The position numbers and the translations under genes are program-made. This document shows positions 21,306 to 23,815 of a DNA stretch of 64,000 nucleotides, in pieces (the first letter of the stretch is position 1; each line of letters opens with the position of its first letter). The notes beneath the pieces were generated by a model that was not told the DNA's origin, made no database searches, and saw only the letters and a list, made by a program, of their open reading frames with translations. Source of the DNA: Haloferax mucosum ATCC BAA-1512 (lineage in GTDB: Archaea > Halobacteriota > Halobacteria > Halobacteriales > Haloferacaceae); assembly GCF_000337815.1 (NCBI RefSeq), contig NZ_AOLN01000018.1, forward strand, positions 124,001 through 188,000, in the 5' to 3' direction.

Positions 21306-23759
21306 TTACTCTTCGACGACGATGGCACCCGTCATGCCCGCGGCCTCGTGCGGGATACAGAGGTAGCTGTGTTCGCCGGCGGTCTCGAAGGTGTGCGTGT
21401 AGGACTGGCCGGACTGCACCGCGCCCTTCCCGTCTTCCCACCCAGACTCGGCGGCGTCCTGCGATTCGAAGCCACCGGAAGCCCAGTACGCCGCGCCCTC
21501 CGGAATCTCGTCCTGATAGGCGGTCACCGAGTGCGCTTCGCCGCCGGCGTGCTCGAACGCGACCGTGTCGCCGACGCGCACCGTCAGTTCAGCGGGTTCG
21601 AACGCGACGGCGGTCATCTTCACCACGTGGTCTGCGTCCTCGGGGACGCCTTCGACGACGCTCGGCCCACCGGTGTACTCGGTCTCGGAACTGCCGCCGT
21701 GCTCGTGGCCGCCGTCCGCGCTCGGTGCCTTGTCGATTGCGCCGACGACCGCAAACTGGGCGCGGGCGGTCGCAACCGCGTATCCTTCTGCGGCGGTCTC
21801 CACGTCGCTTCCGTCTTCGAGCGCGCCGACGTAGGTCGAAAGCGCCGACTCGAAGCCTTCGTAGGCATCGTGGTCGGCTTCCTCCAGCGCCTCGTGAACA
21901 CGAGCCCCTTCGAACGTCTGGAAGACGCCGCTCATGCGCTCGGACGCGGCGGCCGCGAGACCCGCGTCGGCGGCGGCGGTTGCAACGACGGCGTACATCG
22001 AATCGACCGCTTTCTGACCGTAGGTTTTCGCCGCGTCGTAGGCGTCGCCGCCGTCTTCGGCCGCGGTGCGGACGTTGCCGAGTGCACCTTCGAACGACTC
22101 ATAGAGGTCGTGGTCGGCTTCCTCCAGCGCCTCGTGGTAGCCGCCCGCACCCTCCTCGAAGAAGGTGAACGTCGATTGGACGACCGTCGCGGCGCGGTCG
22201 GTGGCGCCGACCTGTGCGAGCGCGGCGGCGTCGAAGCCGCGGGCACCGAAGAACGCCGCTTCGGCGGCCGACACTTCGGCGGTCGTTCCGACGGCCGTTT
22301 CGAACTCGAAGAGCGCGTCCATCGCACCCTCGGCGTGCGTCGCGGCCGCGTCGGTTTCGCCAGCCGTCGCCGCATCGACGAGTCCGGCGAGGTGTTCCTC
22401 CTCGAAGCGGTGGTAGAGTTCTTCAGACTCGTGTTCGACCGACTCGTGGATGTCGGCTTCGTTCTCCTCAAAGCGGGCGAACAGCCCCTCTGCGACGGTG
22501 GCGGCTCGGTCCGTCTTACCCTGTGCGACGAGTTCGCGGGCGTCCGCGAGGCGGGCGCGGAAGAACGCCGCTTCGAGCGTCGTCGCCGACTCGCCGCCGA
22601 CGAGCGCCGTGACGCCGGTGAGAAGGTTCTCGTCAACCGTCGCAAGCGCGTCTTCGGTCGCCGCGGCGTCGCCGGACTCGGCGGCTTCCTTCAGCGATTC
22701 GAGACCGCCCTCGAAGCCTTCGTAGGCGTCGTGGTCGGCTTCCTCCAGCGCCTCGTGAGCGCGCGCGCCCTCGAAGTGCGCGTAGACGTCGCCGGCGAGC
22801 GTCGCGGCGAAGTCGGTCTCTCCCTGCGCGACGAGTCGAGTCACGTCGGCGGCGCGGGCGCGGTAGAGCGTGAGCGCGGATGCGTGTGCGTAGTCGTCGC
22901 CGGGACCGCCGAGTCCGGCGAGCACTTCGGCGTCGAAGCCGACCGACTGCATGAGCGCGAGGTGGCCGGCACCGGCGACCGACTCGGGGACGAGTTCGTA
23001 GGTCGCTTCGACTGTCGCGTCCGCGGCAGAGCGCGCAGACGAGACGATGCTGTCGGCGTCAGACGCGTCGGCCGCGCCCTCGACACCGGCCTCGAACGTC
23101 TCGTAGAGTTCCGACGAGGCGTCTTCGAGCACCGAGTGAGCCGGTGCCTCTTCGAACGATTCGTAGACGCCGTTGGCGAGTTCGGCGGCGGCCTCGACCT
23201 CGCCAGCGGCGGCGAGCATCTCGGCGTCTCGGGCGCGCGCACCGAACAGGAGGACGTTCATCGCATCCACGACAGCGGTATCGACGCGACCGCGCTGGGC
23301 CGCAAGAAGGTTGGCGGACGCCTGTGCCGCGAGGTCGATACCGGCGTCGGTGTTCCCGTTCGCAAACTCGTCTTTTGCGCCGCGGAGGTGTTCTTCGAAC
23401 GTCTCGTAGTTCTCCTCGTTCGTCTCTTCTAACTGCTCGTGGGTTCCCCACTCGCTCGACGCCTGTTCGAAGCGCGCGAAGATGTCTTCCGTGACGCGGG
23501 CCGCGGTTCCCAGTCGTCCCGCCCCAGCGAGGGCGATAGCGTCGTACAGACGTGCACGCATCACGTTCCACTCGGCCGCGACGGCGACGGTCGCATCGAC
23601 GGTCACGGACATCTCGCCGGTGGCGGTCGTCTCCGACCCGTCCGTCTCGTTTCCGGCCGTCGTGGATTCGTCGGAAGACTGTGCGCTACATCCTGCGAGA
23701 CCGGCAGTCGTAACCGCCAGCCCCGTCGTTTTCAACAGACTCCGTCGGGAGTAGTTCAT
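21306..23759 (-). CDS. DUF5059-like repeat protein with C-terminal halocyanin (type 1 copper) domain
   Basis: The product is 817 residues. The Tat lipoprotein signal is NYSRRSLLKTTGLAVTTAGL, then AGC. Residues 60-690 consist of six helical repeats, each carrying a segment like HEALEEADHDAYEGFE, rich in His, Glu and Asp. The last 110 residues are a cupredoxin with ligands His (GGEAHSVTA), Cys and His (YLCIPH) and Met (AAGM), as in halocyanins. It should sit on the outer face of the membrane, shuttling electrons and possibly binding metal through the repeats. A DtxR-type operator lies just upstream. The DUF5059 name is from memory of the family. Confidence 0.8.
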   Translation of the reverse strand: MNYSRRSLLKTTGLAVTTAGLAGCSAQSSDESTTAGNETDGSETTATGEMSVTVDATVAVAAEWNVMRARLYDAIALAGAGRLGTAARVTEDIFARFEQASSEWGTHEQLEETNEENYETFEEHLRGAKDEFANGNTDAGIDLAAQASANLLAAQRGRVDTAVVDAMNVLLFGARARDAEMLAAAGEVEAAAELANGVYESFEEAPAHSVLEDASSELYETFEAGVEGAADASDADSIVSSARSAADATVEATYELVPESVAGAGHLALMQSVGFDAEVLAGLGGPGDDYAHASALTLYRARAADVTRLVAQGETDFAATLAGDVYAHFEGARAHEALEEADHDAYEGFEGGLESLKEAAESGDAAATEDALATVDENLLTGVTALVGGESATTLEAAFFRARLADARELVAQGKTDRAATVAEGLFARFEENEADIHESVEHESEELYHRFEEEHLAGLVDAATAGETDAAATHAEGAMDALFEFETAVGTTAEVSAAEAAFFGARGFDAAALAQVGATDRAATVVQSTFTFFEEGAGGYHEALEEADHDLYESFEGALGNVRTAAEDGGDAYDAAKTYGQKAVDSMYAVVATAAADAGLAAAASERMSGVFQTFEGARVHEALEEADHDAYEGFESALSTYVGALEDGSDVETAAEGYAVATARAQFAVVGAIDKAPSADGGHEHGGSSETEYTGGPSVVEGVPEDADHVVKMTAVAFEPAELTVRVGDTVAFEHAGGEAHSVTAYQDEIPEGAAYWASGGFESQDAAESGWEDGKGAVQSGQSYTHTFETAGEHSYLCIPHEAAGMTGAIVVEE

Positions 23760-23763
23760 ACTT

Positions 23764-23777
23764 TTAGGCACACCTAA
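23764..23777 (-). promoter_or_regulatory. DtxR/SirR-type operator at the start of the copper-repeat gene
   Basis: TTAGGCACACCTAA is a palindrome with perfect 5-bp arms and a 4-nt spacer, matching the TTAGG/CCTAA arms of metal-dependent DtxR-family repressor sites. It begins 4 nt upstream of the ATG at 23759, between the TATA box and the coding region, where a bound repressor would block initiation. Confidence 0.65.
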
Positions 23778-23780
23778 GAT

Positions 23781-23789
23781 GATAAAAGG
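23781..23789 (-). promoter_or_regulatory. TATA box of the copper-repeat gene
   Basis: On the minus strand this reads CCTTTTATC, about 25 nt from the start codon at 23759, giving an essentially leaderless transcript. It is flanked on both sides by DtxR-like palindromes (23764-23777 and 23797-23815). Confidence 0.55.
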
Positions 23790-23796
23790 ACTTCGA

Positions 23797-23815
23797 TTTT
23801 TAGGTTACCCAAAAA
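23797..23815 (-). promoter_or_regulatory. Second, imperfect DtxR-like palindrome
   Basis: TTTTTAGGTTACCCAAAAA is a near-palindrome containing TTAGGT with an imperfect complementary arm. It lies upstream of the TATA box at 23781-23789, so two repressor sites may bracket the promoter. A further half-site TTAGGC is at 23824-23829. Confidence 0.45.

Follow-up and report, generated by a model that had tools for sequence, protein, structure and literature searches.

The gene at positions 21306..23759 (minus strand) of the window, the 64,000-nucleotide stretch of the Haloferax mucosum genome analyzed here, encodes an 817-aa Tat lipoprotein composed of a DUF5059 region and a cupredoxin domain, and there is strong support for assigning it to the iron regulon. 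We give about even odds (a probability of roughly 0.5) to the reading that the product is a lipid-anchored surface protein induced by iron starvation and used for iron acquisition. The gene is the orthologue of HVO_1228 (hcpE) of H. volcanii, as judged from the open reading frame and Pfam. Since the family is already catalogued (DUF5059/hcpE) as an uncharacterised halocyanin-domain protein, the finding is partly known beforehand. In the literature we found no functional study and no metal-binding or oxidase assay of DUF5059/hcpE, and no description of the DUF5059 repeat structure, operator pair or iron-regulon membership. Little is known of haloarchaeal iron uptake beyond the siderophore cluster and its transporters; the gene is probably part of how haloarchaea capture iron.

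Operator pair of the DUF5059 gene

The open reading frame starts with an ATG at 23759 on the minus strand and ends with a stop codon at 21306-21308. A scan of the window with the palindrome pattern TTTAGGN4CCTAAA (at most one mismatch) returned only two matches, with 0.00 expected. The proximal palindrome, TTTAGGCACACCTAAG (+ strand, 23763..23778), lies just 5′ of the start codon, and the distal one, TTTAGGTTACCCAAAA (+ strand, 23799..23814), lies 36 bp from it. Between them is the BRE/TATA core promoter, AATCGAAGTCCTTTTATCAT on the coding strand (23779..23798, minus strand), a layout shared by 52 homologous promoters. Two palindromes bracketing a TATA box had been described in an earlier, sequence-only reading of this DNA, and the scan bore this out. 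The ATG is 3 nt past the end of the proximal palindrome, and relatives have the same arrangement. Given this position of the palindromes, on both sides of the BRE/TATA and close to the start codon, a repressor sitting on them would mask the probable start of transcription.

Conservation of the palindromes, whose absence the same reading had listed as part of a refutation, was pronounced. Both were present in 52 of 56 homologous promoters from haloarchaeal genera, spaced by 33-37 bp (36 bp in 27 of them), and the conserved pair was seen again in two overlapping homologue sets obtained by different searches. Exact palindrome pairs were found in 14 of 15 Haloferax genomes, compared to none with a reversed-pattern control.

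Helical repeats and copper domain

The N-terminus, MNYSRRSLLK, contains a Tat signal (SRRSLLK) and is followed by a lipobox, LAGC, with Cys24 as the predicted lipid anchor (23688..23759, minus strand); R5, R6, G23 and C24 are invariant in 44 homologues. Pfam DUF5059 (PF16502) matched residues 59-679 with 906 bits against a cut-off of 25 and over the entire model (positions 1-619 of 619), and Pfam Copper-bind (plastocyanin/azurin-type) matched residues 713-816 with 54.9 bits. The signal, the lipobox and the domain calls agree with the earlier description of a Tat lipoprotein. There is one full-length copy of the gene in the H. mucosum genome. It is an ordinary full-length member of the family with the same domain layout as HcpE (HVO_1228), from which no structural differences were found, and the two proteins presumably have the same function.

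AlphaFold2 modeling with 44 homologues predicted, for the whole protein, an all-helical DUF5059 region (residues 56-681; 21717..23594, minus strand) with about five helices per repeat, followed by a beta domain (mean pLDDT 90, and 93 for the helical part modeled alone). Relative placement of the repeats is less certain because the pTM was 0.63-0.64. A repeat HMM divided the helical region of the window protein into six tandem repeats of ~105 aa (E 1e-19 to 1e-32), and pairs of repeats also matched each other in BLASTP (best E about 5e-16). Of 41 full-length homologues, 39 had six copies, and short homologues of 500-525 aa, from Halorutilus and two uncultured lineages, had three.

According to the HMM and the alignment, repeats 1, 3, 4, 5 and 6 share the motif F-E-x(4-9)-H-[E/D]-x2-E-x6-Y-x2-F-E-x3-L. 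All lie on the minus strand. Repeat 1 (residues 56-160; 23280..23594) contributes E98, H107, E108, E111, Y118 and E122. Repeat 3 (residues 288-388; 22596..22898) contributes H335, E339, Y346 and E350, with H292 invariant too, and repeat 4 (residues 389-491; 22287..22595) H438, E439, E442, Y449 and E453, with H456 and H475 also invariant. The corresponding residues are H542, E543, E546, Y553 and E557 in repeat 5 (residues 493-597; 21969..22283) and H622, E626, Y633 and E637 in repeat 6 (residues 599-681; 21717..21965). Repeat 2 (residues 161-258; 22986..23279) is degenerate and has lost the motif. Therefore, of the six His/Glu-rich repeats proposed in the earlier reading, all six exist and five carry the conserved motif.

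The motif core (FE, H, E at +4, Y at +11 and FE at +14/15) showed 93-100% identity, mostly 100%, among the 41 homologues in repeats 1 and 3-6. Invariant residues occupy 71 of 633 positions and include 8 of the 17 His overall (p=2e-4); Phe, Glu and Tyr are enriched there as well, Asp is not, and all 16 invariant Glu fall inside the motif. Halophile proteins are acidic in general, and a bias for acidic residues was therefore rejected as evidence of metal binding and the invariant positions were used instead. With His, Phe, Glu and Tyr enriched at these positions and Asp not, the pattern goes beyond the acidity common to such proteins. Each of the five conserved repeats is, judging from these residues, a candidate carboxylate/His/Tyr iron site.

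Across 60 family genomes, DUF5059 proteins were the only ones in which the repeat was detected; 12 of these genomes contain it, each with exactly six copies. A PDB search for remote homologues of the repeat by sequence gave chance-level matches only, mostly to designed bundles. Fold search with the helical part produced long spurious repeat alignments and no PDB match at E<=0.001; a weak match the size of a single repeat, to photosystem II chain Q (4yuu, E 5.3), was treated as generic.

The C-terminal type-1 copper domain, delimited by Pfam and fold matches, covers residues 701-816 (21312..21659, minus strand). Its four type-1 ligands, H743, C801, H804 and M809, are 100% conserved, and matches in the whole-model fold search were dominated by plastocyanins. 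The score with the NCBI halocyanin domain TIGR03102 was 42.1 bits, below the cut-off of 93.8. The halocyanin domain of the earlier reading is a true type-1, halocyanin-like site that falls short of the NCBI definition; plastocyanin/halocyanin-like is the best description of the domain. Ordinary halocyanins, in contrast, have no such repeats, and none of the other cupredoxin relatives found in the genome has the operator, which among them only the DUF5059 gene carries.

Halocyanins are one-electron carriers of haloarchaea (PMC8305020). With its complete type-1 copper site and its halocyanin name, hcpE, the protein might accordingly be an iron-sparing electron carrier, a halocyanin that replaces iron-containing carriers under iron limitation and whose repeats are a stalk positioning the copper domain beyond the membrane. 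We consider this unlikely: a passive stalk leaves the H/E/E/Y/E motif, invariant in five repeats across 41 homologues, unexplained, the other cupredoxin relatives do not share the operator, and haloarchaea already use copper carriers, so that little iron would be saved.

Genomic setting and published expression

Genome-wide, the palindrome pattern (one mismatch allowed) matched 36 sites, compared to 3 for the control. Genes adjoining the palindromes encode eight FhuD-type (Peripla_BP_2) binding proteins, a FecCD permease with its ATPase in an operon, an Fbp-like solute-binding protein with a permease, a NifU-like protein, and DUF7260 and DUF7551/7552 proteins. They also include an aminotransferase-decarboxylase pair resembling the start of a siderophore operon, which in H. 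volcanii begins with dat-bdb (PMC7407949). Two marks of a haloarchaeal DtxR-type iron regulon, a palindrome in the promoter and an operator common to the iron-uptake genes of the genome, were thus found. Several DtxR-family regulators are encoded in the genome; we infer that the repressor is a protein of this family and that the gene responds directly to iron.

Operators in pairs, 36-37 bp from each other, are a general feature of this genome's iron regulon and mostly lie 5′ of FhuD-type genes (G000 C1:118476/118512, C12:27754/27790, C19:21972/22008, C20:8117/8153, C20:16755/16791 and C4:231245/231282). Such a spacing points to cooperative binding on either side of the TATA box. Palindromes at G000 C1:113653, C1:114591 and C1:118253 (locus L051) lie 5′ of RraA-like, polysaccharide-deacetylase-like and glutamine-synthetase-like genes, and this cluster, which also contains a FhuD gene, possibly represents a second siderophore-related pathway.

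In Natrinema and Haloterrigena the DUF5059 gene is located directly 3′ of FecCD/ATPase/FhuD genes and in Halobellus 3′ of FhuD and ATPase genes; additional palindromes lie in these stretches. Genes for DUF7260 and DUF7551/DUF7552 proteins (L062:3570-4379, L067:4367-5299, L096:6706-8485, L110:6795-7580 and L081:6726-7517) are members of the palindrome regulon and, in other genera, are also neighbours of the DUF5059 gene. Because of this double recurrence, these proteins are probably iron-related.

Published H. volcanii data bear on the same question. In an endA knock-down, HVO_1228 (log2 +4.2) is among the ten most induced genes, between siderophore genes (iucA/B/D) and Fe(III)-binding proteins (PMC7714728). 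In a second study, where it is named hcpE, it is down by log2 -2.92, as are iucA, bdb and dat and the gene of an Fe(III)-binding protein (PMC9051519). Neither paper's passages on HVO_1228 draw a conclusion about it; it covaries with the siderophore cluster both up and down. Lack of iron raises the siderophore transcript itself 44-fold (PMC7407949). An H. volcanii iron-starvation proteome makes no mention of HVO_1228 in its main text (PMC11349517). The sequence-only reading had postulated metal-responsive expression. Control by iron is strongly supported by the conserved operator pairs, by operators common to siderophore and Fe(III) uptake genes, by the closeness of the gene to FecCD/FhuD operons in other genera, and by the published co-expression with the siderophore cluster.

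The proximity to FecCD-ATPase-FhuD genes (Natrinema, Haloterrigena) or FhuD/ATPase genes (Halobellus), together with co-expression with siderophore synthesis, would also suit a surface protein that receives or reduces ferric siderophores or haem, in which the repeats hold the chelate and the copper domain aids release of iron to FecCD/FhuD. This appears less likely still than the electron carrier. Halocyanin-type potentials, about +0.2 V, are too high for reduction of ferric siderophores, the chelate is already bound by FhuD proteins, and PDB sequence and fold searches gave no link to haem or siderophore receptors. Handling of another metal (manganese, copper) under a regulator not specific for iron is improbable, for although the DtxR family includes Mn-responsive members and several of its regulators are encoded in the genome, the genes that bear the operator serve mainly siderophore and Fe(III) uptake, and expression of HVO_1228 goes up and down with the siderophore cluster.

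Proposed function, known systems and distribution

For iron acquisition at the cell surface, the reading we prefer, the following scheme can be proposed. When iron is plentiful, a DtxR-family repressor (of Idr, SirR or TroR type) would occupy both palindromes around the TATA box and keep the gene off; when iron is scarce, the repressor would be released and the gene switched on along with those for siderophores and Fe(III) ABC transport. The protein, going by its signal sequence, would be exported by the Tat pathway and anchored via the lipobox Cys. The five conserved repeats may bind iron through their carboxylate/His/Tyr sites, concentrating it at the surface. The type-1 copper domain would swap electrons with the bound iron, most likely converting Fe(II) to Fe(III), the electron would be passed to the respiratory chain, and ferric iron would be handed to a co-regulated FhuD- or Fbp-type substrate-binding protein.

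The sequence-only reading had compared the protein with EfeO, which combines a cupredoxin with an all-helical domain whose conserved His, Glu and Tyr are proposed metal sites (HxxE, Tyr, Glu/Asp) (PMC9174327). Provided that the window protein acts on iron, both are exported iron-uptake proteins pairing a cupredoxin with an all-helical His/Glu/Tyr domain. However, the domain order is reversed (the Cup domain is N-terminal in EfeO, the copper domain C-terminal here), and the window protein has six repeats and a complete type-1 copper site. Membership in the M75/EfeO family was rejected. There was no match to the Pfam M75 (imelysin) domain in the window protein, and hhalign gave probabilities of 0.1% against an EfeO profile and 0.5% against an imelysin profile, both small (2 and 4 sequences) and built from bacterial genomes. 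Comparison of the predicted structure with imelysin/EfeO, suggested earlier, turned out negative: the fold search of the helical model had no entry of M75, a fold of two four-helix bundles, among the 50 matches listed. In 119 family genomes, H. mucosum included, neither an EfeU/FTR1 permease (0/119) nor M75 proteins were found. The likeness to EfeO therefore holds as a functional analogy and does not extend to sequence or fold.

FtrB of the FtrABCD iron-uptake system, a cupredoxin with Fe(II)-oxidising activity in vitro (PMC11966278), is similar in being a cupredoxin of iron uptake, the role presumed for the window protein. However, FtrB binds Cu via D118/H121 and works with an FTR1-type permease, FtrC, whereas the haloarchaeal relatives have no FTR1. 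It is plausible, by analogy, that the window protein is a haloarchaeal counterpart of cupredoxin-helical iron-uptake proteins. A broader proposal, which we advance tentatively and at less than even odds, is that DUF5059 is an independent means of haloarchaeal surface iron capture, made of a new helical metal-binding repeat (three or six copies) and type-1 copper, which would oxidise and hold several irons per molecule and pass them to ABC transporters without FTR1. If true, EfeO and FtrAB would be joined by a third, unrelated route by which iron uptake couples a cupredoxin to metal-binding sites, and a Pfam domain of unknown function would gain a role. HVO_1228, with a defined operator and candidate metal ligands, is a named candidate in the genetic model H. 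volcanii and makes the proposal directly testable.

DUF5059 was detected in 30 of the 119 family genomes and in 18 of 393 genomes of the phylum, all 18 from the same order as H. mucosum; among 14 named control genomes only H. volcanii had it. Since it is missing from about three quarters of the 119 family genomes, the gene has an accessory function. The compact three-repeat form of 500-525 aa (L123:3138-4706, L124:281-1855 and L125:3815-5323) has the same operator pair and copper domain, with a weakly scoring middle repeat, and is perhaps the ancestral form. The DUF5059 gene of Haloferax massiliensis seems to contain an interruption of about 1 kb, matches in H. prahovense and H. gibbonsii were confined to a copper-domain stretch, and Natrinema gelatinilyticum has a truncated copy; these interrupted, partial and truncated copies are located at L116:4001-7401, L131:4001-4150, L136:4001-4150 and L128:4001-4900.
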